A DNA stretch of 64,000 nucleotides from Branchiostoma floridae (Eukaryota > Chordata > Leptocardii > Amphioxiformes > Branchiostomatidae): positions 17,236,156 through 17,300,155 of the forward strand of contig NC_049994.1 in the NCBI RefSeq assembly GCF_000003815.2, in the 5' to 3' direction. The stretch's first letter is position 1. Every line of letters starts with the position of its first letter. A model generated the notes under the pieces. That model was not told the origin of the DNA. It did no database searches and saw nothing but the letters and a program-made list of their open reading frames with translations. Shown in pieces: positions 17,188 through 51,484 of the stretch. Position numbers and translations under genes: made by a program.

Positions 17188-17239
17188 TGACTAGTGTCCA
17201 CGTCTGGCTGAGACTGGGGCTGATTCTGTACGCCGCAGG
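17188..17239 (+). CDS. acvr2 exon 1: signal peptide
   Basis: ATG in the context GCCATCATGACT starts [17 protein letters not shown], a typical signal-peptide core. The donor is GCAG/GTAAGC and the exon ends in phase 1, as in vertebrate ACVR2 exon 1. The start is the only one that supplies a signal peptide in phase with exon 2. Upstream sequence from about 16900 is probably 5' UTR or promoter; no TATA box is evident. Confidence 0.85.
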
Positions 17240-32200: not shown

Positions 32201-35200
32201 GAAATAACTCCTGTATGTACCCAGAACATGGACCAGTGCAGCTGCACAGCTCTTATTTTACCTGTACTAGCCTGTATATACCCAGTGCACGTTAGGTACA
32301 GATACTGGGATATTAAAAATACCAGCACAGCTCCAATCTAACCCGCACAACCTGCATATGCAGGTAGGACTTTAATCCCAGCATCCCTAAAGAATGTAAA
32401 CAGTTTGTTCAAAGCCATAGTCAGCATGAGGGTTGGCTAGCGGCAGAGCTCTGCGCCCTGCCACAGGTGTCGGCAGGTCTGTGATGTTGTTGAAAGGCTG
32501 GAACTCAAACCAGGTTGTGTCTGTACTGCTGTCTGTGAGCCAGTTGTCCTTGCAAGAGTAGGCCACACCTGGGACAGAAGAAAGCCAGCTTCAGGGTCCT
32601 AGCCAGTACTGTAAATCAGGGCTCTAGCCAGCTCGAAATTTTTTTCCGTCAGCCAATTCCAATCGTCGTGAAAACCGCGAAAATTCATTTTCCCTATGAC
32701 ACTACAAAGTAGTAAATGTTGCCATTGATACCTTGAAAAACGGGTTTTAATGAGATTATCGTATGCGAAAGAGCGCGGACACACATTGTCAACATGCATA
32801 ACAATAGCAAAACAAACAGTGTGTGGCTTTTACGGCCGTGGACGGCGTCCCCAAGCCGCCTGTAACTTCCACCAAGGACTTTTGTCCGTAAAGGTTGACG
32901 GATTGGTTTTAAAATTTTTCCGTCAGATCGCAGCAAATTTCCGTCCATTGACGGAAAAACGGACGCTGGCTAGAGCCCTGCTGTAAATGCATTTAAGTTT
33001 GCGGGGATTTAATTTTGCGGTAGCGAGAAAATGGAGTTTTCGTGGTGGTTTTAAGTTTGCCGTAGCGCCATAGACTGTAGCCACATAACATGGAAATGGA
33101 AAATGTTCGCGGTGGTTTTAAGTTCGCCTTGAAGTGGCCACCGCGAAAACCGCGAACATAAAACTACCGCGAACAATTCTACATATACAGTATTTCATTT
33201 TATCATAATGGGAGAATGGAAAGACAAGTTCATGGTGGAAAAGGTCTTGGTAAAAACTCAAAAAGGACACTTAAATTGATACACCTACTGTAGTCAGACA
33301 GACTCAAGTTTTCCTTCTAACCTACTGTTTTCATCGTCCTGAGCTAAGGTTTATGTTTTGTCAGCCGAACCATCGGGTTAAATAAGGTAAATATATGAAG
33401 CTGAGAGAGCATCGCCCTGTGGGCAACATCGTGGCCGAACATGCAAAATACAGGAAAACATTTACACACAGGCGAGCCTTGGGCAGTGGTCATGCGTGTC
33501 TTAACTCCCCTATAGCTAGTTACACAGGAAAGTACAAGCCAAGTTCTGATGGCATTGGCAAGGGGAAGTCCAATCCCTGGGCATTTGGTGGTGAGAATGA
33601 GAACGGACTGTACCAAGACTGCAAGAGGAATGGGGGGGGGGGGTTAATTGGAAAACACTGTGCCACTTTATCTACCTTAGGCCACACCAATTTAATCTCT
33701 TGGTTCACGGATTCGCTCGCTCCTATTTTTTTGAAAAAATAAAAAAATAAAAATTACCACTCAGCAAATTTTCACCATTAATGAAACCATTCACCAACTT
33801 TCTGGTATAGCAAATTGGCCTTTATATTATAAGCTCCTTAAAGTGCGGGTACAGGTGCTGTTACTGTACAAAAATAGTTTTTCAAGCTGAAAACATTTTT
33901 CTTTATGTTTAGGATTAGCCGTTACCTTTACCCCAACCATTTTACAATTTTTATTTTTATTTCGCCCTCTCGCTCCATATTTTTTATGAAAAAATCCGTG
34001 AACCAAGAAATTAAATTGGTGTGGCCTTATAATGCATTGGAAAAATTAAGAAGGCAATTTCAATCAGTATATTGATACATTGTATAAACCTCTTTACCAA
34101 ACGCTCTTTTGAGTTCGGAGTCCACTTGAAGATGTGACCTTGCTTTTGCTCTTGAAGACTTGTTACTTTACTTGACCTTGGTTTTTGATTGGCTTTAGTT
34201 AGGGGTTGACACAGGACTGGTCATGTAGCGAAACCATTCTAAAGTGGTTTTCAAATCCAATGCTTGAGCTCACAGGTTTTTCAGCAGGGTTCAAAATGCT
34301 ACTTGCGCATCCAAGTAGCGTAGGAAGCGATGGAGGAAATGACTAAAGATGTTTTCCCTGTGTGTTTGCCCGATGTGGTTGTTAGTACTGTAGTATATTT
34401 TGTTTATTACCTCCATGAAAAATGAAGGTATAGTTTTGCATGTTTGTGAGTGTGTCCATATCTGTTGATATATCTCTATATATCAATGATCTCTCTCTTT
34501 ATATATATATATACCTTATCCAATGATATGTACCTATATGCTCCTGTTTTAATTCATCTATTTACTGGTTTGGCTGTTCAGCACACACAGCCAGGGCTGC
34601 CCAACTAAGCTTTGTCTATTACAAAGGGCTTGCCCTGCTGACAGAGACAGAGAAATACAAATTCATAACTTTGTATGAAAACCTCTAAAAACCTCTTCAA
34701 GGAGTTTTGAGGTCTCGGATCTCAGTGTTTTCTTTGTGTTGACTTGGCTATGGCCAAGCAAACAAAAAGTCAAGAAATTAAACCGAGACAAGAAATTAAA
34801 CCAATGTGTCCGTGTGTGTTTCCCCAGGGCTTAGCCTGTGTGCTGCCGTGGACACGACATGTGAGTTCTACGACAACTCAGAGTGTGAGAACCAGGAGAA
34901 CTGTAACAGCACCTCCAGGTTCGTCATGTGTAAGGACGAGCAGCAACAGGAGGAGGGCAAGAGGAGCCACTGTTACGCACTCTGGAAAAACGAGTCCAAC
35001 GTTATAACCCTCGTCAAGAAGGTACGATTACTTTCTTTGTGCATGTAGATTTTTAAAAGCGTTATAACCCTTGGCAAGAGGAGTCACTGTTACGCACTCT
35101 GGAAAAACGAGTCCAACGTTATAACCCTCGTCAAGAAGGTGAGATTACTTTCTTTGTGCATGTAGATTTTTAAAAGCGTTATAACCCTTGGCAAGAGGAG

Positions 35201-38200
35201 TCACTGTTACGCACTCTGGAAAAACGAGTCCAACGTTATAACCCTCGTCAAGAAGGTGAGATTACTTTCTTTGTGCATGTAGATTTTTAAAAGCGTTATA
35301 ACCCTTGGCAAGAGGAGCCACTGTTACACACTTTGGAAAATGAGTCCCCATCGTTATAACCCTCGTCAAGAAGGTGAGATTACTTTCTTTGTGCATGTAG
35401 ATTTTTAAAAGCGTTATAATCCTTGGCAAAAGGAGCCACTGCTATGCTCTCTGGAAAAACGAGTCCAACGTTATAACCCTCGTCAAGAAGGTGAGATTAC
35501 TTTCTTTGTGCATGTAGATTTTTAAAAGCGTTATAATCCTTGGCAAAAGGAGCCACTGCTACGCTCTCTGGAAAAACGAGTCCAACGTTATAACCCTCGT
35601 CAAGAAGGTACGATTACTTTCTTTGTGCATGTAGATTTTTAAAAGCGTTATAACCCTTGGCAAGAGGAGCCACTGTTACGCACTCTGGAAAAACGAGTCC
35701 AACGTTATAACCCTCGTCAAGAAGGTGAGATTACTTTCTTTGTGCATGTAGATTTTTAAAAGCGTTATAACCCTTGGCAAGAGGAGCCACTGTTACACAC
35801 TTTTGAAAATGAGTCCCCAACGTTATAACCCTCGTCAAGAAGGTAAGATTACTTTCTTTGTGTAGATTTTAGATAAGGGCAATCTTTCGTTTAAGTTACT
35901 ACTTATTTCTCTCTTTGTCCATGGAGAGACATTGGGCTATGATGTGTGGTACTAATCTTTTGTTGTAAAATTTAGAGGAAAACAAGTCCAATGTTATAAC
36001 CGTCAAGTAGGCGAGGTTCTCTTTTGTCTTATAGAGATTTTGGGAAAAAATTACTCCAATGTTGTAACTGTCATTAAAAAGGTGAGATTTTTCTGATAAG
36101 ATTTTAGGAAAAAGGATTTTATGAAAAAGTAGTACTGTTATAACCCTCATCAAGGTGAGGGCATTTTTTTAGTCAAACCTATATTAGCGACCACCTTTGC
36201 ATAGCAACCACCTGGCCATTTTGCTTACTTTTTGTCAGTCCCTTGAATTTCTCCCATTGACCTAAGATTTGGGTTGTTACAGGATTGCTGGTTGGATGAC
36301 AATGACTGCTATGACAAGTTTTATAACTTGTGTTGTTACAGGGTTGCTGGTTGGATGACAATGACTGCTATGACAAGTTTTATAACTTGTGTTGTTACAG
36401 GGTTGCTGGTTGGATGACAATGACTGCTATGACAAGTTTTATAACTTGTGTTGTTACAGGGTTGCTGGTTGGATGACAATGACTGCTATGACAAGTTTTA
36501 TAACTTGTGTTGTTACAGGGTTGCTGGTTGGATGACAATGACTGCTATGACAAGTTTTATAACATGTGTTGTTACAGGGTTGCTGGTTGGATGACAATGA
36601 CTGCTATGACAAGTTTTATAACTTGTGTTGTTACAGGGTTGCTGGTTGGATGACAATGACTGTTACGACAGTCAAGAGTGTTACTAAGTTTTCTATCTTG
36701 TGTTGTGACAATGACTGCTATGACAAGTTTTCTATCTTGTGTTGTTACAGGGTTGCTGGTTGGATGACAATGACTGCTATGACAAGTTTTATAACTTGTG
36801 TTGTTACAGGGTTGCTGGTTGGATGACAATGACTGCTATGACAAGTCTTCTATCTTGTGTTGTTACAGGGTTGCTGGTTGGATGACAATGACTGCTATGA
36901 CAAGTTTTATAACTTGTGTTGTTACTGTTAACTGGACTCCGATCCCTCTTATACTAGGGAATAACTCACGCCTTTCCACACAGATGTAGATCACTTTGGT
37001 GACAATGTGTATTCACTCAGATGGTCTCGTACCGGAGTGCCCCCCAAGCCTCAGTCCGCATGCGTCGACTGTTCCATCAGTGAGGGGGGGACTCAACCAT
37101 TCTAAATAAACTAAGTTACAGGGTTGCTGGTTGGATGACAATGACTGCTATGACAAGTTTTATAACTTGTGTTGTTACAGGGTTGCTGGTTGGATGACAA
37201 TGACTGCTATGACAAGTTTTATAACTTGTGTTGTTACAGGGTTGCTGGTTGGATGACAATGACTGCTATGACAAGTCGGAGTGCTATGAACATGATGAGG
37301 CACCAGAGAAGGGAATGTTCTACTGTTGCTGCGAGGGGAACCTCTGTAATCAGCACTTTGACCACCTTCCCATACCACAGCCTGATAGATCAACTGCAGG
37401 TATGTTCAGGGTTCGAAATACACATACTTAACTTGCAATTTGCACATAATTTTTGAGATTTGCATGTAAAATTGTTCTGAACTTGCAATCTTGCATGTTG
37501 AAAATACCTGGCCTATTGGAAAAATACTGAGGAATTAGACCCCCTACTCTTACACAAAAAGACAAATGAATGTGTGTCTTTATCCTTTCTTGTTTTTGCC
37601 AGTAACTTTCTCCGGTAACTTTACTACTGTAGATGTAATCAAAATTCACTGATTCAAGCTAGCGATACTCATCGCCATCGCCGCCTAGTTGTATTTTGCA
37701 TGTAAATTTTTCAAATTGCACGTAAAATTTTTGCCAACTTGCAATTTTGCATGTAGCGAAAAAAAAGTATTTCGATCCCTGTATGTTTGTTTGATGTTGT
37801 TGTTTTATTAAGGCAATAATAATAAAAAAATGAAAAGGAAGGAAAATGTTGTTTTTCCTGTTTCAATCCTGAAAAAAATTAGGGTTGGTAGGAGGGATTA
37901 TTATTTGTTTGCCCAAGCTATAGTGATACAATACAGTTGAACAAAGTGAACTGAAATGCATGAGAGCACTTGTCTTTCAACACCAAACTCTAATTTTGTA
38001 CATAATGGACACATTTCTCCTTCATAAGATAGGACAAGCAGGGTTTTTACTTCAATAGGAAGAAGGCTGAATAAAAATTCCAACTGGAAACTATGTGACT
38101 TGAAGAAAGTAATAACTTATAAGTGGGGCAACCTGAAATGTGGATGGCACAACTTGGCTGTTGACTCAGGCAACCTGACTGAAAAATGTATTTGAACACT

Positions 38201-38957: not shown

Positions 38958-38988
<31 letters not shown>

Positions 38989-41900
38989 AAGAAAGAGAGA
39001 GTAAGGAAGAACTTGTAGGTTCCCAGACATAGGAAAAAGGAGGTGGGAAGGGAAAAAATAAAAATAGGTAGAAAGAAAGACAGAAAGAATTTGTAGGTTC
39101 CGAGACAGAGAAAATGAGGGAAGCAAAGAAAAAGACAAAAATTGTTGCTTCTCGGACTCAAATAGAAGTAGAGGAAAGAAAAAAAAAGTAGTATAAGCAA
39201 ACACCTAACTTGTTTTTTTATATTGTTGTTACATACATATTACTATTAATATATACTACTACTTATACTACTACTTATCTACAGTACGTCCAGCGGCTAA
39301 TGGGAGACCGTCACAGCCAAATCACCCCCAGGCAGCTTCGCCAGCTCGCTGCTGATAGGCAGAACTGGAGAAGGCTTGCAGTCGCCTGCGCTGCAGCCAA
39401 ACGATGATGACGATGATTGTTGCTATTATTTTTCCAGAAACGCCGCGCACTGTTCCGGTAGACAACAGCAAGGAGTTGTTCCGTTCGCTGATGTACTCCC
39501 TGTTCCCGATCTGTGGGATCGCTCTGGTCGTGGCCGTTACCTTCTACATGTACAAGCGGCACAAGTCCGAGCACATACAGGTAAGCACTGTTTGTTTGTT
39601 TGTTTGTTTATTTCAAACTCCATTAGACTTTACAATATACTCAGAAAATCTATTCTTCCTGGAGTCCATTTAAGATAACAAAACAATCAAAAACACTTGC
39701 AGTACACGCTTAGAAACTGTCTCAAGGGATTTTCCTGGGAAAAGAACTGTTAGCAGTGTCGTATAGTACACCCTTAAGGTGCACTCTCACTGCACTTGCG
39801 TCAAGCTTGCTTCTCTGCGGGGTTCGTTCACTGTGTCGCTGTTTTGCTATTTTTTGCGATTTTTGATGATTAGATATTAAGTAGCACGTAAGGCCACACC
39901 AATTTAATTTCTTGGTTCACAGATTTTTTTTTAAAATATGGAGCGAGAGGGCGAAATTAAAATAAAAATAAAAATTATAAAATGGTTGGGGTAAAGGTAA
40001 GGGCTAATCCAAAACATAAAGAATAAAAAGTTTTCAGCTTGAAAAAAGTACAAAAACACTATTACTGTACAGTAACAGCACCTGTTCATTGAAAATTACA
40101 AAAGTAGTGTCAGTTTTTATGTTTGCTACACCAGAAAGTTGGTGAATGGCTTCATTAATGGTGAAAATTTGCTGAGTGATAATTTTTATTTTTATTTTTT
40201 TTTTTCCAAAAAATAGGAGCGAGCGAATCCGTGAACCAAGAAATTAAATTGGTGTGGCCTAAGAGTATGACTTAGAAGATGACAAAATACACAAAAAGTA
40301 CAAAAACTCATTCTTTGTCTCTGAAATTCGTTGAATATCTTTCGAACCCCGCAGTGTCGCAAGCTTGACGCAAGTGCAGTGAGATTGCACCTTTAGAAAC
40401 TGTCTCAAGGGATTTTCCTGGGGAAAGAACTATGGTTACGTCTTGTTTCTTGTCTTGCCAAGAAGGTCAAGTTTTTACTTGCATTTCTTACCTAGCGTAT
40501 GTTGAAGTAGGGGGATAACTGAAAATGTCAGATTTCAAATTTTTAGGAAACAAGTCAGAAGAGCTTATTTGATTCAAAATACATAGCAGAAGATGTTGAA
40601 TGGCACACTTAAGACATACTACTAGATTCTACATACAGGTATCTAGCCTTTTTTCTTAATCTCTTTTCGTATTCATGAAAAGAAATCCAGAAAGACCCCT
40701 TTAAGTTTGATACTTATAGCCTTGTACTTCCCATATTTCCCCCTACTAGGTGTTAAGGTGTTAGCACTTCATGTCAAGTTATTAAGAAATGGACGGTGCC
40801 GCAAAGTTTGTGTGGCTAGTTTGAATACTGTAAATGCATTTAAGTTTGCAGAGATTTAATTTCGCGGTAGCAGGAAAATAGCCTTTTTGTGGTGGTTTTA
40901 ATTTCGCGGTAGCAGGAAAATAGCCTTTTTGTGGTGGTTTTAATTTCGCGGTAGCACCATACATTGTAGTCTCTTACTGTTATGGAAAAATGTTGGCGGT
41001 AGTTTTAAATTTCGCGGTGAAGCGGCCGCCAAGAAAACCGTGAGCATTAATCCACTGCAAAAGTTACTGCATTTACAGTATTTCATTTATCTAGTTATTA
41101 TCATAGTTGATCTCTCAGTGATTTCATAAAAATGCTTAGGAAACAAAAGACACTAACAGCATATCAAGTTCCAAACAGTCAAAACCAAGCCGTCACAGTC
41201 ATTTTTAATTTAGGTCATCACACTCTAAGAAGTAATTGCAGGGTTCTCCCCAGAATATTTTAGTATAGTGGAGGGGCTGTCAAAAATAATCCAAACCAAC
41301 GCACTGCGCTTTCATGAAAATGGGTTCATTTGCAATGACAGAGGGTGTCAAATACTACAAGTATAACATATTATAGTGATTCCTTTGTTGTGAAGTGGCA
41401 AAACGACTATTGTTTTGATCATTGCTCATTCACAAGTTTTTGCAGACAATGCTGGCTCACAAAAGTGATGCCACTTGGCACAAAAATCTGTGAATTGTCA
41501 TTAATTTTAGCAAAGCTAACAAAGAAAATAGGGAAGAAACACACTAAATTTGAAAAATAGTATAGTGGAGCTGGCTGAGAGTATAGTGGAGGGCCTCCCT
41601 TATTCCACCCTCTGGGGAGAACCCTGAATTATAGCCGGAACGTTTATAAAGATTTGGAGGGGAAAAAAACATGGGGAGACTATCTTCATGGTAAGACTAT
41701 CTTCATGTGATCTTTAAAATCACATAGATATTCAACATGCCAATATGGCAGACTCTAGCTTACACCTTAGTTATGTGACAGCAAACAAACCTTTATGAGT
41801 AAGACTTCCTTTGCTGAAAGAAGTATACGGCAAGCAAAACTAAGATTTTGCTTGTTCTCACAGTGTTTTACACGGCACAAGACCGAACATGTTCAGGTAG

Positions 41901-43134
41901 GGGACGACGTTACCTTCGTAGCTTCGCTCTCTGTCGTTGTGATCAGTCAGTGTTGCTAGAACGCCCCTTTGCGTGTCGTTTTTACGCTGGCGCAAAATAC
42001 TTGCTTACGTGAAGGCCACAATCAATTTATTTCCTTGGTTTTTCGGACATAAAAGGGAAAAATTTAGCAAGATGAACACTAACTCAGGCCAAGGAGAAAT
42101 GCTGTGTTTCCTGTTTCATTCCTGAAAAGATTTGGGTCAGTAGGTAGGGATTATCTTTTTCTTTGACCCAAACTCTTTGTTGATACTTCACGTGTACAGT
42201 TTAACTGAAGTAAAACTGAAATGCACAAGCACACTGATATTTCCAATGTCACACTTACATTTTGTGCATAATGGTTAGAAATCCGTGAATACATTTATCC
42301 TTCCTTTAACTTCAATAGGAAGCAGGCTGAATGAAAATTATAACTGGAAGCTATGTGACTCCACTGCCCACTCAAAAAAGGCTAGGGTCGGCAGGTTCTT
42401 CTAGGATAGGTCAAGAAACAGGAAACACAATTTTTTTCCTAGGCCTCAGAGAAAAATTAAACTATTCTTTCCATGAAACTCTGTATCAGGTTACAGAAAC
42501 TTCAGATTCTTTTTCGAGTTTATTTTCCTTTTTTTTTTTTCCAAATCCGAGATCCAACCAATTAAATTGAGGTGGCCTTTTGCTATTAGTCCTTAAGCTT
42601 TGTTATAAACGATTTTCTTCTTCTTTTGAAGCAAATATGCTGATGATTTGTTACAGTTGTGCCATTCCATGCCAATTTTCTGCGTTAATTCCTGGATTTC
42701 ATGACATTTATTCTGTCTTTCTGTTGCAAAGACAGAAGTTGTGTATACTTTTCATACATCAAACCCAAATTTAAGTTTTGTTAGGATATCTGTTTTAAAA
42801 AATTGTAACAAGAACAGTATTTATTGCCTAATTTTCCAACTTCTAAGTACCTTTGCATTAAGAAAAGAAATCCAGGACCCCATGTCTGATTTGAGTGTTT
42901 TACTGGGTGTAGAGACTGTCTGTGCTGAGTTTAGAATTGATTTTAATGATGAACATAGAAGAGGTGTGGGGAAGTTGTGTGCTTGGTGTGCAACTTGTAG
43001 CATCTCCTAGAGCCTGCTAAGAATGGCACACAACTTCAATCACAATCGTCTTTGGTCTATGTGTGTGGTGTGCGTGTGTGCGTGCGAGTGTGAGTTTGTG
43101 TGTATGTGAGTGTATTATGTGTGGATTTACGTGT

Positions 43135-43170
<36 letters not shown>

Positions 43171-46100
43171 ATGTGTACTTGAGAGAGTGACTGTGTGTAT
43201 GCTTGCAATATATATACATGCATGTCTTGGTGCAGATGTTCATGCGTACAAGTGGATTCATGTTATGTCAAAGCGCTCCATTTATCCTGTAATACTTCAT
43301 CTCTGCCCTCCTCTCCCCAGTTTGTGTACATGCGCGTATATGTGTGTGTGTGTGTGTATGTGTATGTCTGTGTGTACAAGCTTGTCTGGTACACATGTTC
43401 ATGCATACGAGTGGAGTCCTGTAATATTGTAATACTTCATCTCTGCCCTCCTCTCCCCAGTTTGTGTACATGCGTGTATATGTGTGTGTGTATGTGTATG
43501 TCTGTGTGTACAAGCTTGTCTGGTACACATGTTCATGCATACGAGTGGAGTCCTGTAATATTGTAATACTTCATCTCTGCCCTCCTCTCCCCAGTTTGTG
43601 TACATGCGTGTATATGTGTGTGTGTATGTGTATGTCTGTGTGTACAAGCTTGTCTGGTACACATGTTCATGCATACGAGTGGAGTCCTGTAATATTGTAA
43701 TACTTCATCTCTGCCCTCCTCTCCCCAGTTTGTGTACATGCGTGTATATGTGTGTGTGTATGTGTATGTCTGTGTGTACAAGCTTGTCTGGTACACATGT
43801 TCATGCATACGAGTGGAGTCCTGTAATATTGTAATACTTCATCTCTGCCCTCCTCTCCCCAGTTTGTGTACATGCGTGTATATGTGTGTGTGTATGTGTA
43901 TGTGTGTGTGTACAAGCTTGTCTGGTACACATGTTCATGCATACGAGTGGAGTCCTGTAATATTGTAATGCTTCATCTCTGTCCTCCTCTCCCCAGATCC
44001 CCACCCAGGACCCCTTGCCGCCGCCCCCCTCCCCCCTGCTGGGACTGCGCCCACTACAGCTGTTGGAAGTGAAGGCCCGGGGCCGGTTCGGAGCGGTCTG
44101 GAAAGCACAGCTCCTCAACGAGTATGTGGCTGTGAAGATATTTCCACTACAGGTACGTCATGTTATTGTTATTGAGTGTGTGTGTGCAAGTGTGAGTGTG
44201 TGTGTGCGAGTGTGAGTGTGTGTGTGTTTGGGAGAGGCTGTTCAGAGCCGTCTGGAAAGCACAACTGCTCAACGAGTATGTGGCTGTGAAGATATTTCCA
44301 CTACAGGTACGTCGCACGGTGTAAGCTCACTCACACTCACTGTCTGGTTTAGCGTCCGTTCATCCCTGTCTTGCAAGGATTGGACATTGCAGAATGTCGT
44401 TCAGGTCTGATTGCTGATCTCCAGCTTGTCAAGCTGATTGTGGATCTGAATAAAGTCAAAGTCATGGATTGTTAAACTTGTGGCCTTTTGTTGCTAGTTG
44501 CCCTCGTAACCCCTGCTTCGCCTATTGGGTCAGTTAGTCCTCACTCATAGTGAGCAATTGGGCTGGTCTCAATCATGATGTTTCTGACCTAGGGCGAAGA
44601 GTTGCTGTTACAGTTCCAATCATGTAACCCGTAACCTTGAGTGGCCTTCAGGCCTTGTTACGAGGTGACCATTGAGTAAAAAAAAAAAAAAAAAAAAAAA
44701 GTTTTCTTAGCATTGCTCTAAAATGTTTTCTTCTCCCTTTGTGCTGCTGACAAAAACAGACCATACAAATGGAAGTGAACAAGGACACAAAAGAAAACTT
44801 TTATATATACATGGTGTAAGATAAAGTGCATAGCATCAACATTTATCTACAATATTTACAATGGGAGGTTAGGGTCAGTCTCATGTATTGTTGAACTTTG
44901 TTTCCTTCCAGGACACATTTTCCCTCCTCTCATCTTTTGTCCTATGTTGTATGATTCCAGGACAAGGCCTCCTGGCTGAATGAGCAGAGTGGAGAAGCTT
45001 TGTCTCATGTATTGTTGAACCTTGTTCCCCCCCAGGACAAGGCCTCCTGGCTGAACGGGCAGATCTCATGTATTGTTGAACCTTGTTTCCCCCCCAGGAC
45101 AAGGCCTCCTGGCTGAATGAGCAGGGTGGAGAAGCTTTGTCTCATGTATTGTTGAACCTTGTTTCCCCCCAGGACAAGGCCTCCTGGCTGAACGAGCAGG
45201 ACATCTTCACCACCCAGCTGATGAAGCACGACAACCTGCTGCAGTTCATCGCTGTGGAGAAGCGCGGAGACGGGCTGGAGATGGAGCTTTGGCTCATCAC
45301 CGCCTTCCACGAGCGCGGATCGCTCACCGACTACCTGAAGGTCAGTCTAACCGCTTTTCGCTCACCGACTATCTCAAGGTCAGTTTAACCGCTTTATCGC
45401 TCACCGACTATCTCAAGGTCAGTTTAACCGCTTTATCGCTCACCGACTATCTCAAGGTCAGTATTAGTCTCCTCATCACCGCCTTCCACGAGCGCGGATC
45501 GCTCACCGACTATCTCAAGGTCAGTATAACCGCTTTTCGCTCACCGCCTATCTCAAGGTCAGTATAACCGCTTTATTGCTCACCGACTATCTCAAGGTCA
45601 GTTTAACCGCTTTTCGCTCACCGACTATCTCAAGGTCAGTTTAACCGCTTTTCGCTCACCGACTATCTCAAGGTCAGCTTAACCGCTTTTCGCTCACCGA
45701 CTATCTCAAGGTCAGTTTAGCCGCTTTTCGCTCACCGACTATCTCAAAGTCAGTTCAATCAATCATATCAGCGACCGTTATTTAAACTGGAATAGCCCTG
45801 ACGGCCTTAGCCGCTCTTCCCAGAGGTCCAGTTTAACCGCTTTCCACGAGCACTGATCGCTCACCGACTATCTCAAGGTCGGTAGAAGTTTCCTGACCAA
45901 TTGCTGTGTATTTTAAGGGATACCTGGTGCATCTCCATCTTGTATTCAGCCAGAAGAAAAGGCATGCCATCCCGTAAGGGGCGGTATAACCCCAACGGTA
46001 CTGTAATACACCGCATGACTCAGACTCTGACTGACTGACTGACTTGCTGTATCACATTTCCAGAAGGTTCTGTGCTCTAGTTGACCGAACGTTTGGTCAC

Positions 46101-49100
46101 TCAAATTCTGAGGAAAAAGAGTCCGCAACGCAGTGCTCTACTTTTTGAGTTGGAAGGGATGCTAATGTTTGTTTTCGTCAGGCCTTTTTGTGTGATTTGA
46201 TAATCGCTGATGTAATTTGTTGGTTATCGGATAAAAAATGACCCTCTTAGCTCATCCTAAAGGGTATACACAGTTTAGTTTCTTCCCAGCCTTTTGTTTT
46301 CATGTTTATTCTTATTTTTCTGGTCTGATTTTAGGCAACAGAGATGGGTGCCAGGCCTACGCATCACAATGTGGTGTATGGCAACTTAGCTTTAGCTTTA
46401 GGCCACACTAGTGTAATTTGTTTGTCAGATAATTGTTTGAAAAATAATACATGAAGTAAAAGTGTATCTTAATTGGTACACACAGTTTCAGATGCAACTT
46501 GTCCTCCCAACACTCACGCCTTGTCTTCTGTCTTGTTTCTACTGGAAGTTATGCGGTTCTCCTAGGTTAATTGAAAAGGCAAAAACATTTATATCTGTGC
46601 GAGGTTCCTGACCTGTTTGGTTATTTCTTCAACATCAGAGAAACATGGAAATAGATTAGTCTGGTCTTAAATGAATAACAAATGTCTTCATCTGATGTGT
46701 TTGATGTGAAAACACGACCCCAACACTGGAGGTACCAAACCTTGCGCTGTGCACAGAGAACCCAGAAATCTGTTATCGTGTTTATGTCTCCCGTCTGGAA
46801 CCGTCTAAATTAATCTTAGTCCTACAGCTAGAAAAACAAGCAGGGAAGGCTTGTTCTTCAGCAGTGACCTGTGTGCATATGTAAAAGCAGTCACCCATCG
46901 ATATGGGCAACAGTCTTTGCAAGCCTTCAAACCTAATTAGCCTAGAAATCCCTCTATGTAAATGAAAAGTGACGTTTGTGTTGCATTTGGGATGCGCCAC
47001 ATATTGTAGCCAGATGTGGGGAAGGTTGCTACAGTGGCGGGTAAGGTTGGATGTTGTTTCTGCAGAGTTTACTGTATCAGTAACACAGTCTATACCAGGC
47101 CTATCTCCAGGACCCTTCCGTAGTCCTGAGACAGAAAGTTTCTTGTTGGAACGGGCAAAAATTTTACGATTTCCAACCGAAATATCTGAAATTTCATTAC
47201 ATGAAGTAGGTAAAAATGTGTTTTCACATGCTTTGTGCATATCATAAGCTTGCAAACTATGAGTGGGACCTAAAAAATTTCAAAGCTTGGGACACAGGGC
47301 TGTCATCAGAAGAAAGTGACTGACCTCTGTGTTAAGTCTTAATTTGTTGATGGAATGAAGGCAATTGTTCATGTTGAGGGGACCAGTGTTACCATCCCAC
47401 TTCTATTGATCAGTGGAGCTCTCAATAAGTGTTAAGTAAGGGGGAGGATGTTAGAAGCCAACCTGAGGAGTACCATGTAATGAAATAACCTGGAGACCAG
47501 GATGAGTCTTTGAAACACTTACATTCTTTAAAATGCATTTATCCCTTTCTAGAGATACCAAATCACGTCTTTTATATGTCAGTTTGACTCCACATTGTCT
47601 CACCAATGGTCTTTTCTGATTTATGTTGCATGAGTAGCCTATTTCCTCATTTCCATATTTGTGACTTTTACCTGTCAGTGTTTGGCTTACATAATTTGCA
47701 TATCTGTGGCTTTTACACAATGTTATAAATATAATTTGCTTATTTTTGATTTCAACATAGCAGTGTTTGTCTTGCATCATTTGCATATTTGTGCCTTTGA
47801 TAGGTATTGTTGGACCAGTTATAGACTTAGCTCCAAACATACACATTTGATGTCTGTACTTTACTAATTGATGAAAATTAATATCAAGATTCCCTGACCT
47901 TTTTTCCCTGCAGGGCCACTTGTTGAAATGGAGTGAGATGTGCCACATTGCGGAGACCATGGCCCGCGGGTTGGCCTACCTTCACGACGATGTGATGGGG
48001 CGGAACGGGGAGTACAAGCCTGCCATTGCACATAGGTACAAATGGAATACAACTTTCTTATGTAGTTTTCCGAGCTCTGACACATTTCATCTTAAAATTT
48101 ATTGACGATAGATAGCAATGTAGAAACAATAACCATAAGCCCTACCCACTCTTCATATTTTAGTATTTTCTGTTATAATAACACCTATTTTCTTACATTC
48201 CTTGAAGTACAAATTAAGCAGAAAAAAATAGATAAGAATAGGTCATACTAGAAGAAGTCGGTCAATATTTTTCTGGAAGACCAATTTGGAAAATTTATTG
48301 AGTTGTAGTTCTCTTATTTTGCTCTAAAAGCTCAGTGACATTGCCATCTCCATAACAAAGATGTAGCACTTAATACTTATACCTTGTGCTAAGCAATCAA
48401 AGTTTTAGCCATTTTGTTGTGTTTGTAATGCTGATGTTTTGAATTTGTTTGCAGGGACTTCAAGAGTAAAAATGTGCTTCTGAAGCAAGACTTGACGGTG
48501 GTGGTGGCTGACTTTGGACTGGCTATGAAGTTTGACCCAGGCAGAAGTTGTGGGGACACGCATGGCCAGGTGGGTTTCTTCTTCATTACCCTGTAAATAC
48601 CCCTACATCCTTGGTTGGAAGTCCTCCTAGGAGACGGATACTCCAAACAACAAAGCTGCATCTGCTGGAGCCGCCTCACACGTTGCATACAGTTGCCCCT
48701 GTGAGACTTAGTGCTCCAGTAGACGAGAGGGTGGAGAAGGAATTGCACACCCCTCCTTCACCATAAAAAGTCATGTGCAGGTCAGGCAAACAGGCAAATA
48801 GCCTGTCTGCCTCCTCATCTGTCCAATCGACAGGAGAAACCCTGTAAATACTACCTCAGTGACTTTAGGATCAAGCCCATCTCAAATTCCTTCCCATCCC
48901 AAATGGTGCATCAGGCAGCCCCCATCTCCATTTTTGTAGCCCTGAACCGCACAACTTTGTACAATCACTACAGCAGGGGGTAGTCCAAATAAAGAAAACT
49001 GTCCACTGGTAGTGGTGTTTGTTCAATAACCATACTTTTTGCTGAGTGCTAAGCAGAGAAAGCGGTAGATATCATATTTTAAAATCTTTGTTGTTGCTCC

Positions 49101-51484
49101 GGGGATCGAACTTTCGACCTACCAACTGCAAGTTGAACACTCTACCCACTTGCCCATTGCACTGGTATGTCACCTTTGGTTTGGTTTGGTTATACAGATC
49201 TCCATTAGTGACTGATCCTTCAGGATATGGTCAGTATTAGGACGTATATGGCCTCCTTTATGTTCTGGATGGAAGTACAGAAGTTTGTTAGAGCTGTAGA
49301 AGTTCCTACGTTGGACAGTTAATTAACTGTTATTGTTTTATCATTCGCAGGTTGGCACGAGGAGGTACATGGCGCCCGAGGTCCTGGAGGGAGCGATCAA
49401 TTTCAACAGGGACGCTTTTCTCAGGATCGACATGTACGCCTTCGGGCTGGTGCTCTGGGAGATCGTGTCCCGGTGCTCCGCAGTCGACGGTACGTTCTCG
49501 TCCTTCGTTATTTTAACAAGGAAGGGGATGACAAAACGAGAGCTCATTTTTGCTCTACTATATGTTCTGCAACAATACAGCCCCAGGTAGTCTAGTCCAT
49601 TAGCAGTGGTGCATGTTCAAATGCTGTGTTCTAAGCAGAGAAAGCAGCAAAAAAAAAACTTTTTTTTTTAAGTCTCTCTTGTGTGTCTTGGCCATCTTAG
49701 TGCAGCAAATCCATGTGGTATGCGATACAGGTGTAAGCATCTTTTAACGCTTTTTACAAAACAACCAAAAACATTGGAACACAGCATAGGGTCTCAAATC
49801 ACAGTGGGTTACAGCAAAGGGCCCTATGATGAAAAGGCCTGGTGAGAACACGGAGTTAAGATCCTCTTCTGTTTCCATTGTCTTCAGGCCCTGTGGACGA
49901 GTACCATTTGCTATCTCGTTACAAAATCATATTACCTGGAAGTCTAAACTTCATCCATGTCCCCCTTCCCTTGTCTCCAGGCCCTGTGGATGAGTACCAG
50001 CTGCCCTTTGAAGAGGAGATTGGCCAGCACCCCACCCTGGAGGACATGCAGGAGGTGGTGGTGCACAAGAAGATGCGCCCCCAGTTCAGGGAGACCTGGC
50101 TTAAGCATCAGGTTCGTTATTGTTACCTTCCCCATGTTAGTGTGTGTGTAAGTGTGCATTAGAGAGTGTGTGTGAGTGTGTGTGTGCACGTGTGTGTGTC
50201 TGTCTTTGAACAGCATAACTCGAGAAGCCTTGGACAGATCCTAATCAGGTTTCTTGTTATCATTACCTTCACTAAGAAGATTATGTTTAAATTATGTGTA
50301 TGTGTGTAACGCTGTGTGTGTCTATGAACGGTATAACTCGAGAAGCTTTGGATGGATCTAAATGTGGTTTGTTGTTTTTACCTTCGCCAAGAAGGTTATA
50401 CGTCGATGTAGGTTAGACATCCAGGTAATAAGATACGCCAAAAATAGTTACTCAAGCAACTGGATATGGTTTTGAAACGGTCAGACGTTTCGGAAAGAAT
50501 CCACTTTCCTTCGTCAGTGACACTGAAGTGATCTGCAAGAAACAGGTCTTTTATACTCTAACTATGAATAAAGACAATTTCAGATGTCCAATAGGAAAGG
50601 TTGTAAGACAATTCAGACTGAAGACAATTTGGATTCCAAAGAAAACAAAGCTAAGCCAAAGTCAAGCTGAAGACAATTTGGATTTCAAAGGATATCAAGG
50701 CTAAGACACAGTTAATGCAAATGAGTCAATTAGCTCCTGTTGTTTTAGTTACAGGAGCTAAAAGTTTTGTTGGCGGGCGGGGGGGGGGGGGTGGAGTGCT
50801 ATGTCCCAAGTGCCGGAAAGTTCCATACGTAGCCCCCCTTTTCTGTTGAGGGTGGGATTGTATATTCTCTCATATATGGCCTCTCTGAATCCAAATTGTC
50901 TTCAGTCTGAATTGTCTTACAACCTTTCCTATTGGACATCTGAAATTGTCTTTATTCATAGTTAGAGTATAAAAGACCTGTTTCTTGCAGATCACTTCAG
51001 TGTCACTGACGAAGGAAAGTGGATTCTTTCCGAAACGTCTGACCGTTTCAAAACCATATCCAGTTGCTTGAGTAACTATTTTTGGCGCAAGAAGGTTATG
51101 TTTTCGGTTTATGTGTGAATGTTTCTGTGTGTATGTGTCTATCTGTAAACAGCAAGAAGCATTGGATGTATCCTGATGATATTTGATACAAGTATGTAAC
51201 AATTTGTTTCTTTCAGGGGTTGGAGATCTTGTGTGAGACCATCCAAGGGTACAACTGTGTAACCATGACGATTGTTTATATTGTTTGTTTGTTTATTCCA
51301 GGGGTTGGAGATCCTGTGTGAGACGATCGAGGAGTGCTGGGATCACGATGCGGAGGCGCGGTTGTCTGCCGGGTGTGTTGAGGAGAGGTTAGGTCAGCTG
51401 AGCAGAACTGTCAACATTACTACCTCAAACACTGTCGACATCACCACCAACCAGCAGACCCCTCCCAAGGAGTCCAGTCTATGA
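17188..51484 (+). CDS. Activin receptor type-2 (ACVR2A/B orthologue), spliced gene, 11 coding exons
   Basis: Receptor serine/threonine kinase for activin/BMP/GDF ligands. As a family member it would bind ligand at the plasma membrane and phosphorylate the GS domain of a type I receptor. Joining the exons listed separately gives 520 residues, close to vertebrate ACVR2 proteins (about 512). Order: signal peptide (about 1-24), cysteine-rich three-finger ectodomain (29-118, with GCWLDD and [11 protein letters not shown]), transmembrane helix (about 153-174), and kinase domain. The kinase has [17 protein letters not shown] as glycine loop, VAVK lysine 230, HRD at 331-333, KSKN, DFG at 351-353 and [13 protein letters not shown]. 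The C-terminus is PPKESSL, a PDZ-binding-type tail conserved in ACVR2. N-glycosylation sequons are at N44 and N72. All splice phases are compatible and no break is seen. Unusually, about half of its splice sites have tandem extra copies in the introns. An ancestral single ACVR2 (before the A/B split) is inferred from the lineage. Confidence 0.97.
19724..19926. mobile_element. MITE-like element, GTAAATGCA family (copy 1)
   Basis: Begins AATGTAAATGCAGAAACTT with a TTTTCGCGGTGGCTG-like body and ends in CCGCAAACTTAAATACATGTA. The family's hallmark is TACTGTAAATGCA at the ends and repeated (T)TTCGCGGTAG inside. Other copies are at 23325, 28948, 32981 and 40826. Confidence 0.7.
19978..20337. mobile_element. 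Harbinger-like MITE (GGCCACACC ends), copy 1
   Basis: The terminal inverted repeats are about 36 bp, beginning GGCCACACCAATTTAATTTC. The element is flanked by a 3-bp TGA direct repeat. At 360 bp with no coding capacity, it is a non-autonomous DNA transposon. A 3-bp TNA target duplication suggests the PIF/Harbinger superfamily (inference). Confidence 0.85.
20984..21358. mobile_element. Harbinger-like MITE (GGCCACACC ends), copy 2
   Basis: Same termini as 19978-20337 in opposite orientation, flanked by TAA on both sides. Copies 1 and 2 lie 650 bp apart in inverted orientation and could pair in a transcript. Confidence 0.85.
23325..23530. mobile_element. MITE-like element, GTAAATGCA family (copy 2)
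   Basis: TACTGTAAATGCATTTAAGT at the left matches, in inverted form, AGTTTCTGCATTTACAGTA at the right. The interior has TTTCGCGGTAGTGGG and TTTTCGCGGTGGTTTTAAG blocks. TA flanks could be target duplications. Confidence 0.75.
24130..24905. repeat. Degenerate minisatellite, about 57-60-bp unit, about 13 copies
   Basis: The recurrent core is TGGTGTAGTCTCCTAGCAGG followed by CTTCCCTGCAGCC and CCAGCATTGTCTGTA. Unit length varies and several copies have internal deletions, so the array is old or recombining. Reading frames across it are by-products of the repeat. Confidence 0.9.
25336..25835. mobile_element. Harbinger-like MITE, second family (GGCCACAGCAAG ends)
   Basis: 500 bp with inverted ends GGCCACAGCAAGTAAATTTT...ATGGATGACATC, flanked by TTA on both sides. 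It shares only the first seven bases with the GGCCACACC family, so the two probably used related transposases. Confidence 0.85.
26841..27199. mobile_element. Harbinger-like MITE (GGCCACACC ends), copy 3
   Basis: Ends GGCCACATCAATTTAATTTC and its inverted partner, flanked by TTA direct repeats. Same internal sequence as copies at 19978 and 33680. Confidence 0.85.
27790..27945. repeat. Dispersed repeat, CCAGTACATGGACCAGT family
   Basis: Blocks reading GTAGACACCAGAAATACCTG, CACAGCTCCAATTTTACCTG and CCAGTACATGGACCAGT occur here twice in tandem. The same blocks recur at 31585-31705 and about three times at 32040-32365. An unclassified interspersed repeat. Confidence 0.7.
28268..28507. repeat. Minisatellite, 53-bp unit, about 4.5 near-identical copies
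   Basis: Copies start at 28268, 28321, 28374, 28427 and 28480 with CACAAACTCTGCTGTCCGGG. Copies are almost identical, differing at one T/C position in the first, which implies recent expansion. All three - strand frames are open through it, a consequence of repeat composition rather than coding. Confidence 0.95.
28948..29145. mobile_element. MITE-like element, GTAAATGCA family (copy 3)
   Basis: Left end TACTGTAATGCAGAAAGTTT, right end AAAGTTTCTGCATTTACAGTA, with inner TATTCGCGGTGGTTTTAAGT and its complement. Sequence just upstream (28925) carries a second TACTGTAAATG end and may be a nested or tandem copy. Confidence 0.65.
29240..30215. repeat. Tandem repeat, about 120-150-bp unit, seven copies
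   Basis: The core TACTGAACTAGGGAGTAGAA then AACCACGCTAGCGTCCT, TTAATAAGCAAGCTAT and AACTCGATAACACAGCC occurs with starts near 29271, 29391, 29534, 29671, 29820, 29949 and 30092. Units differ in length by small indels. Confidence 0.9.
30610..30735. mobile_element. MITE-like element, CTCCAAGCAG family (compact copy)
   Basis: CTCCAAGCAGAAGATGGTAT at the left is inverted in CATCGTAGGATCTGCTTGGAG at the right. About 126 bp, non-coding. Body similar to the cluster at 14042-14510. Confidence 0.7.
31585..32365. repeat. Dispersed repeat, CCAGTACATGGACCAGT family (further copies)
   Basis: One copy at 31585-31705 and a tandem group at 32040-32365, matching the blocks at 27790-27945. Non-repeat intron sequence lies between them. 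Confidence 0.65.
32617..32980. mobile_element. hAT-like non-autonomous element with 8-bp target duplication
   Basis: 364 bp with inverted ends CAGGGCTCTAGCCAGC and GCTGGCTAGAGCCCTG. It is flanked on both sides by the perfect 8-bp direct repeat CTGTAAAT. The CAGGG ends and 8-bp duplication fit the hAT superfamily. The interior has TTTTTTCCGTCAGCC-like and TTTTTCCGTCAGAT sub-repeats. The right-hand CTGTAAAT is the left end of the adjacent GTAAATGCA element, so this element inserted into that one. Confidence 0.85.
32981..33193. mobile_element. MITE-like element, GTAAATGCA family (copy 4)
   Basis: Starts CTGTAAATGCATTTAAGTTT and ends CTACATATACAGTA, with TTCGCGGTGGTTTTAAGTTC inside. The hAT-like element is inserted at its left edge. 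Confidence 0.7.
33680..34026. mobile_element. Harbinger-like MITE (GGCCACACC ends), copy 4
   Basis: Inverted ends GGCCACACCAATTTAATCTC and partner, flanked by TTA on both sides. Orientation opposite to copy 3. Confidence 0.85.
34828..35021 (+). CDS. acvr2 exon 2: N-terminal half of ligand-binding ectodomain
   Basis: Acceptor TTTCCCCAG/GGC, donor AAGAAG/GTACGA; enters in phase 1 and leaves in phase 0. Encodes residues 18-82, including the ACVR2-like [17 protein letters not shown] segment (vertebrate: HCFATWKN). Six cysteines are present, one inside the signal peptide. C37 and C43 lie in a loop where vertebrate ACVR2A has none. Sequons N44-S-T and N72-E-S. Confidence 0.95.
35022..35860 (+). 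repeat. Donor-side repeat array of exon 2, 117-bp unit, seven extra copies
   Basis: Each unit repeats about 66 bp of the 3' end of exon 2 (GCCACTGTTACGCACTCTGG ... CTCGTCAAGAAG), its GT donor and about 50 bp of intron. Extra donors lie at 35139, 35256, 35374, 35491, 35608, 35725 and 35843, that is 117 or 118 bp apart. Most read GTGAG, one GTACG and the last GTAAG; the true site reads GTACG. Each unit has a TAG in the exon frame eight codons past the donor, so read-through would truncate the receptor. Confidence 0.95.
35970..36160 (+). repeat. Decayed copies of the exon 2 donor repeat
   Basis: Three degenerate units can be seen: AGTCCAATGTTATAACCGTC near 35988, ACTCCAATGTTGTAACTGTC near 36053 and GTTATAACCCTCATCAAGGTGAG near 36132. 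They continue the array at 35022-35860 with increasing divergence away from the exon. Confidence 0.75.
36283..36930 (+). repeat. Acceptor-side repeat array of exon 3, 59-bp unit, ten extra copies
   Basis: Each unit has GTGTTGTTACAG followed by the first 36 bp of exon 3 (GGTTGCTGGTTGGATGACAA...GACAAG) and a TTTTATAACTT linker. Extra acceptors precede 36283, 36342, 36401, 36460, 36519, 36578, 36637, 36751, 36810 and 36869. Most copies are identical, indicating recent expansion or gene conversion. A disturbed unit lies at 36675-36745. Translated frames repeat [12 protein letters not shown], which is exon 3 sequence. Confidence 0.97.
36931..37121 (+). other. Non-repeat segment interrupting the exon 3 acceptor array
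   Basis: About 190 bp of sequence unrelated to the 59-bp unit splits the array into a group of ten and a group of two plus the true exon. No coding or transposon signature is seen. Confidence 0.6.
37122..37239 (+). repeat. Acceptor-side repeat of exon 3, two further copies abutting the true exon
   Basis: Units start at 37122 and 37181, exactly 118 and 59 bp before the true exon 3 start at 37240. They are the same unit as the array at 36283-36930. Splicing to either would insert 59 or 118 nt and shift the frame. Confidence 0.97.
37240..37399 (+). CDS. acvr2 exon 3: C-terminal half of ectodomain
   Basis: Enters in phase 0 and leaves in phase 1 at GCAG/GTATGT. Encodes residues 83-136 with [18 protein letters not shown] and [15 protein letters not shown], the hallmark cysteine block of type II activin receptors. 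It is identified as the true copy because only this unit continues past GACAAG into TCGGAGTGC and the rest of the domain. Confidence 0.96.
38380..39190. repeat. Compound repeat: about 110-bp unit plus long polypurine tracts
   Basis: A unit containing GAATGTGGGGTGTTGTTGAC, GGCACGTAAGGCCACGTAAA and GGCTACTGCAGTGGGATTGT occurs near 38390, 38560 and 38850. The copies are separated by GAAAGAAAGGAAGG-type purine runs (38655-38830, 38950-39190). All bases on one strand are purines over long stretches, so triplex or polymerase-slippage structures are possible. Confidence 0.85.
39438..39580 (+). CDS. acvr2 exon 4: juxtamembrane stalk and transmembrane segment
   Basis: Acceptor ATTTTTCCAG/AAA, donor ATACAG/GTAAGC; phase 1 to phase 0. 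Residues 136-183. Hydrophobic stretch [20 protein letters not shown] is followed by the basic stop-transfer MYKRHK. Position and exon phases match vertebrate ACVR2. Confidence 0.95.
39776..40393. mobile_element. Inverted-repeat element interrupted by a Harbinger-like MITE
   Basis: GGTGCACTCTCACTGCACTT followed by GCGTCAAGCTTGC on the left is inverted in GCAAGCTTGACGCAAGTGCA followed by GTGAGATTGCACC on the right. Outside it, CTGTCTCAAGGGATTTTCCT is directly repeated (39718 and 40398), so the insertion or a local duplication copied the flank. A Harbinger-like MITE sits inside at 39892-40259. Confidence 0.75.
39892..40259. mobile_element. Harbinger-like MITE (GGCCACACC ends), copy 5, nested
   Basis: Inverted GGCCACACCAATTTAATTTC ends flanked by TAA direct repeats, within the element at 39776-40393, so it is the younger insertion. 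Confidence 0.85.
40826..41080. mobile_element. MITE-like element, GTAAATGCA family (copy 5)
   Basis: TACTGTAAATGCATTTAAGT at the left, AGTTACTGCATTTACAGTA at the right. The inner TTTCGCGGTAGCAGGAAAAT block is tandemly duplicated, making this copy longer than its relatives. Confidence 0.75.
41239..41626. mobile_element. hAT-like inverted-repeat element (CAGGGTTCTCCCCAGA ends)
   Basis: Left CAGGGTTCTCCCCAGAATAT, with AGTATAGTGGAGGGGC following; right AGTATAGTGGAGGG ... TCTGGGGAGAACCCTG. No clear target duplication can be read. The CAGGG end is hAT-like, but the superfamily is uncertain. Confidence 0.7.
41864..41896 (+). other. Candidate 33-nt microexon or decayed copy of exon 4 donor end
   Basis: Between CTTGTTCTCACAG and GTAGGG lie 33 nt encoding [11 protein letters not shown]. 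This resembles the end of exon 4 ([11 protein letters not shown]) at both protein and DNA level. Exon 4 ends and exon 5 begins in phase 0, so inclusion would add 11 residues just after the transmembrane stop-transfer without changing frame. It may be an alternative exon or an old duplicate of the exon 4 donor boundary. Not part of the main model. Confidence 0.45.
42013..42577. mobile_element. Diverged relative of the Harbinger-like MITE family
   Basis: Left GGCCACAATCAATTTATTTC and right AACCAATTAAATTGAGGTGG then CC are imperfect inverted repeats related to the GGCCACACC family. No target duplication can be recognised. Interior differs from the young copies. Confidence 0.5.
43050..43180. repeat. 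TG dinucleotide microsatellite
   Basis: TG-rich tract with a pure run of about 30 bp at 43139-43169. It grades into the 134-bp repeats downstream, which contain similar TG runs. Confidence 0.95.
43301..43996 (+). repeat. Acceptor-side repeat array of exon 5, 134-bp unit, five extra copies
   Basis: Each unit ends in CTCTGCCCTCCTCTCCCCAG, the polypyrimidine tract and AG that precede exon 5. Extra AG sites come just before 43321, 43461, 43595, 43729 and 43863; the true one precedes 43997. Spacing is 140 then 134 bp four times. Unlike the exon 3 array, the copies do not include exon sequence: the AG is followed by TTTGTGTACATGCG and a TG tract. Copies are nearly identical. Confidence 0.96.
43997..44152 (+). 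CDS. acvr2 exon 5: start of kinase domain
   Basis: Phase 0 to phase 0, residues 184-235. Encodes [20 protein letters not shown], closely matching the vertebrate juxtamembrane [19 protein letters not shown]. It is followed by [20 protein letters not shown] (nucleotide-binding loop) and VAVKIFPLQ with the ATP-anchoring lysine 230. Donor CTACAG/GTACGT. Confidence 0.97.
44228..44316 (+). repeat. One extra copy of the exon 5 donor end
   Basis: Repeats about 79 bp of the 3' part of exon 5 (GTCTGGAAAGCACAACTGCT ... TTTCCACTACAG) plus GTACGTCGC, with a few substitutions (GGGAGAGGCTGTTCAGAGCC against GGCCGGTTCGGAGCGG). A TG-rich stretch separates it from the true exon by about 75 bp. Confidence 0.9.
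44676..44700 (+). repeat. Poly-A tract
   Basis: Run of about 24 A in intron 5. No retroposed gene can be recognised upstream of it. Confidence 0.9.
44911..45172 (+). repeat. Acceptor-side repeat array of exon 6, three extra copies plus a partial one
   Basis: CCAG/GACAAGGCCTCCTGGCTGAA starts at 44961, 45036 and 45098 before the true exon at 45173, spaced 75, 62 and 75 bp. A shorter CCAG/GACA fragment is at 44913. Linkers share AGAAGCTTTGTCTCATGTAT and TGTTGAACCTTGTT. Each copy carries 25-33 bp of the exon. Confidence 0.93.
45173..45340 (+). CDS. acvr2 exon 6: kinase N-lobe to hinge
   Basis: Phase 0 to phase 0, residues 236-291. Encodes [28 protein letters not shown] and the hinge [18 protein letters not shown] (vertebrate [18 protein letters not shown]). 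Donor CTGAAG/GTCAGT. It is the true copy because only it holds the whole 168 bp between acceptor and donor. Confidence 0.97.
45341..45885 (+). repeat. Donor-side repeat array of exon 6, 38-39-bp unit, about eleven extra copies
   Basis: CTCACCGACTATCTCAAG/GTCAGT recurs with donors at 45379, 45418, 45457, 45520, 45558, 45597, 45635, 45673, 45711, a damaged one at 45749 and 45878. The unit ending at 45520 carries a longer exon piece (CCGCCTTCCACGAGCGCGGA). All copies read TATCTCAAG where the true exon reads TACCTGAAG, so the array has been homogenised separately from the exon. Confidence 0.95.
45886..47913 (+). other. acvr2 intron 6, distal part
   Basis: No gene or well-defined element is recognised. 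Isolated GGCCACACTAGTGTAATTTG at about 46402 resembles a solitary end of the Harbinger-like family. The TTTGCATAT(C/T)TGTG motif recurs at 47695, 47780 and nearby. Confidence 0.5.
47914..48035 (+). CDS. acvr2 exon 7: kinase C-lobe start up to catalytic HR
   Basis: Acceptor TTCCCTGCAG/GGC, donor CATAG/GTACAA; phase 0 to phase 2. Residues 292-332, with [20 protein letters not shown], matching the ACVR2 alpha-E helix, and ending AIAHR, the first two residues of HRD. Confidence 0.96.
48455..48569 (+). CDS. acvr2 exon 8: catalytic loop and DFG
   Basis: Phase 2 to phase 0, residues 332-370. Completes [12 protein letters not shown] (catalytic loop; vertebrate [12 protein letters not shown]) and contains [15 protein letters not shown] with DFG at 351-353. 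Donor GGCCAG/GTGGGT. Confidence 0.97.
48990..49165 (-). mobile_element. tRNA-derived SINE-like repeat in intron 8
   Basis: Read on the - strand from 49165, GGGCAAGTGGGTAGAGTG resembles a polymerase III A-box and AAGTTCGATCCCCGG a B-box, about 35 nt apart. A non-tRNA body follows (TCTCTGCTTAGCACTCAGC). A related body fragment lies at 49600-49660 (TTCTAAGCAGAGAAAGCAGC plus an A run). The tRNA part does not form a complete acceptor stem. Confidence 0.5.
49351..49489 (+). CDS. acvr2 exon 9: activation segment
   Basis: Phase 0 to phase 1, residues 371-417. Encodes [38 protein letters not shown] and RCSAVDG, nearly identical to the vertebrate activation segment and alpha-F helix. Donor GACG/GTACGT. 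Confidence 0.97.
49888..49912 (+). repeat. Single upstream copy of the exon 10 acceptor end
   Basis: TTGTCTTCAG/GCCCTGTGGACGAGTACCA at 49878-49906 repeats CTTGTCTCCAG/GCCCTGTGGATGAGTACCA of the true exon 93 bp downstream. After this the copy loses similarity. Confidence 0.85.
49981..50111 (+). CDS. acvr2 exon 10: kinase C-lobe
   Basis: Phase 1 to phase 0, residues 417-460. [20 protein letters not shown] followed by [19 protein letters not shown], the characteristic ACVR2 sequence. Donor CATCAG/GTTCGT. Confidence 0.97.
50436..51087. mobile_element. Long-arm inverted repeat (202-bp arms) in intron 10
   Basis: Left arm 50436-50637 (CGCCAAAAATAGTTACTCAA ... GACAATTTGGATTC) and right arm 50886-51087 are near-perfect inverted copies around a 248-bp loop. 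The arms carry GTCAGACGTTTCGGAAAG and TCGTCAGTGACACTGAAG. Relatives of the arm occur at 3440-3550 and 26420-26495. The near-identity of the arms implies recent insertion. A transcript through intron 10 would form a 202-bp stem. Confidence 0.85.
51217..51248 (+). repeat. Single upstream copy of the exon 11 acceptor end
   Basis: TTTCAG/GGGTTGGAGATCTTGTGTGA then GACCATC at 51211-51245 repeats the true acceptor and first 30 bp of exon 11, 85 bp upstream of it, with a few substitutions. Confidence 0.88.
51302..51484 (+). CDS. acvr2 exon 11: end of kinase domain and C-terminal tail
   Basis: Enters in phase 0 after TTATTCCAG. Encodes [20 protein letters not shown] then [10 protein letters not shown], matching vertebrate ACVR2, followed by a short variable Thr/Asn-rich stretch and the terminal PPKESSL. 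Stop TGA at 51482-51484. Confidence 0.97.

Follow-up and report, generated by a model that had tools for sequence, protein, structure and literature searches.

Tandem repeats whose units straddle exon/intron boundaries, known as mirage minisatellites, are described for amphioxus Adh3, the globins BflGb6 and BflGb9, TnC (troponin C) and PGBD5 in the accessible text of PMC3087553 and PMC3902484; retinol dehydrogenase and presenilin are also cited for similar structures. In the accessible text of PMC3087553, splicing is given as normal at the Adh3 and globin mirages, the BflGb6 mirage differs in copy number between two haplotypes and the Adh3 mirage is somatically unstable. A more distant relative is the Rogers model of intron gain from AG/GT proto-splice sites (cited in PMC3087553; PMC4974935 for potato RdRp), which, as excerpted there, likewise has tandem duplication copying splice signals. 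In the open-licence literature (with activin receptors not queried by name) we found no title announcing a genome-wide survey of amphioxus boundary copies, and the word 'mirage' is absent from PMC3096672, on amylase.

The DNA analysed here (the window) is a 64,000-nucleotide stretch of Branchiostoma floridae, C16:17236156-17300155 of a 513.4-Mb, 431-contig genome representing one haplotype. It contains a gene for activin receptor type II (ActRII) with 11 exons and 10 introns on the plus strand, joined into one open spliced frame of 520 amino acids with GT-AG at 20/20 splice sites. In the PDB, the protein's top relatives are kinase domains from activin receptors IIB (2qlu, 6e-160) and 2A (3q4t, 2e-157). 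Compared with the genome, the protein has matches of at least 84% identity at the ActRII locus only (among 53 matches listed, with 83 of 189 candidates scored).

A 120-bp segment at every one of the 20 splice sites was compared with its surroundings by BLAST, and a local copy was defined as a match on the same strand, within 3 kb, of at least 40 bits and extending at least 6 bp to either side of the boundary. Strong boundary-spanning copies were present at seven sites (six at a stricter 8 bp per side, the exon 5 donor dropping out). Copies passing the filter number 7 at the exon 2 donor, 13 at the exon 3 acceptor, 1 at the exon 5 donor, 2 at the exon 6 acceptor, 7 at the exon 6 donor and 1 each at the acceptors of exons 10 and 11. 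The tandem arrays have units of 38–39, 59, 62, 117 and 134 bp (TRF); single copies lie 85–154 bp from the true site. A sequence-only reading of this DNA had held that nine of the twenty sites are copied, and this count stands once two further cases are added to the seven: a diverged but beyond-chance copy of the exon 4 donor, and exon 5 acceptor copies consisting of tract and AG.

In window coordinates, all on the plus strand, exon 1 (17187..17238) encodes the signal peptide. Exon 2 (34828..35021) is followed by seven copies of its donor end in a 117-bp unit, up to 66 bp of exon plus approximately 51 bp of intron (35073..35870; TRF and alignments); the true donor follows 35021, and splice-site scoring places the decoy donors after 35138, 35255, 35373, 35490, 35607, 35724 and 35842. 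Exon 3 (37240..37399) is preceded by a 59-bp array of acceptor copies, each approximately 37 bp of exon with the intron tail (36269..36925; TRF and alignments), and, after approximately 190 bp of other DNA, by a second cluster nearer the exon (37115..37239; TRF and motifs); motif counting gives 12 decoy acceptors here, against 13 by the filter. The exon 4 (39438..39580, transmembrane) donor copy lies 2.3 kb off with its GT in register. Although it does not pass the BLAST filter, it scores 17.5 in local alignment, which exceeds the scores of all 200 first-order-Markov shuffles of the intron (maximum 15.5).

Exon 5 (43997..44152) is abutted by a 134-bp intronic array (43288..43996; TRF and motifs), in which a pyrimidine tract plus AG recurs five times with zero exon bases; the earlier reading, too, had described these copies as tract and AG only. 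On its donor side is one copy of 67 bp of exon and 7 bp of intron (44240..44313; alignments), with four exon differences, three of them synonymous. Exon 6 (45173..45340) is flanked on both sides: upstream by acceptor-end copies, two with tract and AG and the others degenerate (44878..45125; TRF, alignments and motifs), and downstream by a 38/39-bp donor array (45358..45883; TRF, alignments and motifs) with 11 decoy donors by motif against 7 by the filter, including one longer unit with 48 bp of exon at 45472. The local-copy scan found no copies of exons 7 (47914..48035), 8 (48455..48569) and 9 (49351..49489). Exon 10 (49981..50111) and exon 11 (51302..51484, including the stop codon) each have one acceptor-end copy, at 49873..49906 (alignments and motifs) and 51203..51243 (alignments), respectively.

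The suggested kinship with amphioxus mirages is borne out, the accessible text of PMC3087553 and PMC3902484 describing the same structures. As in those cases, the ActRII units straddle exon/intron boundaries at donors and acceptors, carry AG or GT, and at 38–134 bp fall within the mirage size range of approximately 10–160 bp. They differ in extent: the accessible accounts give one boundary each for BflGb6 and BflGb9 and two for PGBD5, whereas ActRII has 7–9 of 20, with both sides of exon 6 affected. Unlike in the Rogers model, as far as it is set out in the cited text, duplication here begins at introns already present and leaves no exon visibly split. By its sequence features ActRII would add an unusually dense case to a kind already known. 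We put at roughly two in three the probability that its arrays are mirage minisatellites of the amphioxus type for which the exon edge has acted as a lasting source of copies. Boundary-spanning copies in amphioxus are themselves already known; new here are the synonymous bias of the exon-copy differences, the scoring of decoys and a candidate microexon derived from exon 4.

The density of copies had been said to set a splicing problem, one true site among many near-identical ones, and on paper the problem is real. Scored with a simple weight matrix, 26 of 40 decoys equal or exceed their true site; the 40 are the motif-found set, with the degenerate exon 6 copies and the exon 4 copy outside it. 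All seven exon 2 decoy donors score at least as high as the true donor, six of them higher. Use of 38 of the 40 would cause a frameshift or a stop. The two remaining are acceptor copies of exon 6 (window 45098) and exon 10 (window 49888); splicing at these would insert 75 and 93 nt, respectively, in frame and without a stop. If the behaviour given for globin and Adh3 mirages in the accessible text of PMC3087553 holds at ActRII, local site strength could not be what singles out the exon-proximal site; exon definition would be the probable cause. The locus thereby offers a natural experiment in how the spliceosome chooses among many near-identical sites.

Similar copies occur elsewhere in the B. 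floridae genome, in two paralogous receptor-kinase genes and two genes of the chaperonin family. The paralogue regions L034 (C18:16109000-16118999) and L035 (C18:16140000-16149999) have boundary-spanning copies at 4/8 and 3/4 scored sites; L072 and L073 have them at 1/6 and 1/2. The remaining eight control regions have boundary copies at 0/52 sites. Among kinase loci outside ActRII, 4 of 20 have copies, all within the two C18 receptor regions, and none were found at seven lower-identity (30–39%) kinase loci taken for other kinases. A set of UCH loci gave boundary copies at 0 of 27 scanned (of 30; L048, L056 and L060, whose matches cross 8–26 stops, were omitted, and some of those kept also contain a few stops). 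Boundary copies are therefore not special to ActRII, yet not universal; they are a feature of particular genes in which local duplication is active, and the matches cluster by locus.

The exon-derived parts of the copies were compared with the true exon in alignments that followed its reading frame, and distinct differences were counted. Across all genes 44 of 72 are synonymous, where untranslated copies should give 23.4% (P = 9e-12); 46 of 72 fall at third positions, where untranslated DNA should give 33% (P = 1e-7). Copies within one array are related, so these counts are not fully independent. The synonymous fraction also exceeds a 40% bound that allows the exon itself synonymous drift (P = 2.4e-4). 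ActRII alone gives 19/28 (the count used; other alignment limits give 20/27). The control genes alone give 25/44, a weak excess over the 40% bound (P = 0.018); their main source, L034, contributes 15/29, and its removal from the full set leaves 29/43 (P = 2.5e-4 against the same bound). Differences fixed across all copies are synonymous in 5/5 cases and those at single-copy sites in 14/19. Differences that vary between copies of one array are synonymous in 25/48 (P = 1.6e-5), which argues against a single burst followed by decay, since that would leave the neutral fraction. Copies farther from the exon are more diverged (permutation P = 0.0075), a trend that is weak within the large ActRII arrays (rho 0.24–0.42).

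Only a translated sequence should change with codon periodicity, and nearly all scored decoys would break the protein; the translated source of the copies is therefore likely to be the exon, either as it stood at various times or as different alleles. The synonymous bias, which is new evidence on origin, suggests that the functional exon has repeatedly re-seeded the arrays. The accessible text of PMC3087553 and PMC3902484 mentions no such codon-position signature. Short tandem duplications across an exon edge would be tolerated as long as correct splicing still used the exon-proximal site and, because they are tolerated, would accumulate in the introns of genes with active local duplication. 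The functional edge may seed new copies via repeated duplication, unequal exchange of diverged alleles, or conversion, and the seeded copies would move outward from the exon and then decay. Allelic exchange is made plausible by the high polymorphism of B. floridae, 6–7% genome-wide (as cited in the accessible text of PMC2632668). The bias offers a simple genome-wide test of array origin.

These could instead be ordinary minisatellites placed at random, introns full of repeats hitting boundaries by chance and the half held in the exon aiding survival of the array. ActRII introns are indeed repeat-rich: local copies exist for 333 of 1,577 grid points (21%) and for 671 of 3,157 on a second grid, and against this raw coverage, with points unweighted, 7/20 sites is no clear excess. 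So that a multi-copy array enters as a single event, we weighted each intron point by 1/copy number (founder weighting). Gene-matched in this way, ActRII has 7/20 sites against 1.14 expected; the gene was picked for having copies, so control genes matter. Five regions with receptor paralogues, located through protein similarity, give 7/30 against 3.99 (P = 0.11, a fairer figure than the P = 0.0027 of a cruder pooled weighting), and seven chaperonin-family (Cpn60_TCP1) regions give 2/42 against 0.23 (P = 0.023). With all genes pooled, 16/92 sites are copied against 5.36 expected (P = 1.5e-4; 1.0e-4 to 2.6e-3 over 12 settings, and 1.1e-3 to 2.6e-3 at a 50-bit cut-off); outside ActRII the figures are 9/72 and 4.22 (P = 0.029). 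These controls comprise 36 introns (72 sites) passing a score filter among 39 resolved, with predicted splice boundaries; nine adjacent exon pairs were unresolved and left out, pairs with profile gaps of more than 25 residues were skipped, and myosin loci were left out because many of the matches belong to gene tandems on C9 and C5.

The proposal that some process preferentially duplicates exon edges is thus upheld in part: the founder-weighted excess speaks for it, whereas raw coverage and the paralogues alone do not. Exon-edge preference is only moderate, approximately a two-fold excess outside ActRII, and part of it may arise because arrays tied to a conserved exon survive better; we estimate by reasoning that exon conservation keeps boundary arrays recognisable 1.2- to 1.6-fold longer. 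Random placement also fits the regions in which intron repeats were not found (L067-L071), where boundary copies are at 0/34 sites, and the empty UCH set. Weighed against the excess with arrays counted once, in ActRII and beyond it, we consider random placement rather unlikely.

That the copies are themselves functional, as decoys tuning splicing or as alternative exons, appears improbable. The in-frame extensions from the exon 6 and exon 10 acceptor copies are open, but two in-frame decoys in 40 is about the chance level by our estimate, and mRNA is normal at reported mirages in the accessible text of PMC3087553. As translated alternative exons, 38 of the 40 scored decoys are rejected on frame or stop.

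One candidate for function is the diverged exon 4 copy. Exon duplication can produce mutually exclusive exons, with intronic copies of coding sequence that bear splice sites. The ActRII introns likewise contain coding-sequence copies that carry splice sites; these differ in comprising one exon edge and one splice site, with the exon 4 copy perhaps having both AG and GT. This copy (41864..41896, plus strand) lies between exons 4 and 5, and an AG of its own stands 33 nt ahead of the GT; as a candidate microexon it would keep phase 0, is stop-free and would encode 11 residues. In intron 4 no other AG and GT lying in frame and 15–60 nt apart reach its strength, and on sequence it has candidate sites at both ends and would keep the frame, as a duplicated exon would. 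Its residues RHKTEHVQ correspond to RHKSEHIQ in the exon despite five substitutions in 24 nt, a conservation equalled or exceeded by just 0.25% of random five-substitution variants, for a single case whose 24-nt stretch was picked after the alignment was seen. Protein sense thus appears conserved in a plausible 33-nt in-frame microexon. A bolder combined proposal, which we regard as doubtful, is that amphioxus exon edges keep writing their own copies into the flanking introns, retaining past or allelic synonymous states, and that 41864-41896 has been recruited as an in-frame exon of 33 nt. If true, the receptor would gain a longer juxtamembrane segment, and the proposed passage of a mirage copy into a new exon would be caught in the act; expression of the copy would show the origin of new exons in a conserved signalling receptor.

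An assembly artefact, with exon-edge alleles joined in tandem or arrays mis-expanded, is very improbable: a second haplotype would likewise show synonymous differences, and an earlier genome draft misassembled a globin mirage (accessible text of PMC3087553), but no N was found across the whole ActRII span (17187-51484), the copies are graded, interspersed and partly diverged, distal ones carry a stop and non-synonymous changes, and lancelet PGBD5 repeats were confirmed by re-sequencing (accessible text of PMC3902484).

Other repeats occur in the window. A dispersed element in both orientations lies in introns at approximately 20.0, 21.0, 26.8, 27.1, 33.7, 34.0 and 40.3 kb, with common stretches (one of 12 residues, for example) in several frames. 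A dispersed repeat (transposable element) as origin of the boundary copies is disfavoured for the exon 2 unit only, whose listed genome matches (8/8) all lie at the ActRII locus. Downstream of ActRII, a minus-strand open frame of 1,385 codons (window 54589-58743) encodes an acidic, repetitive protein and contains 177- and 213-bp tandem repeats; as a single long open frame it was unusable as a control. Intron 10 holds an inverted repeat pair at window 50440-50610 and 50895-51085, recognized by eye from the sequence and its open frames.
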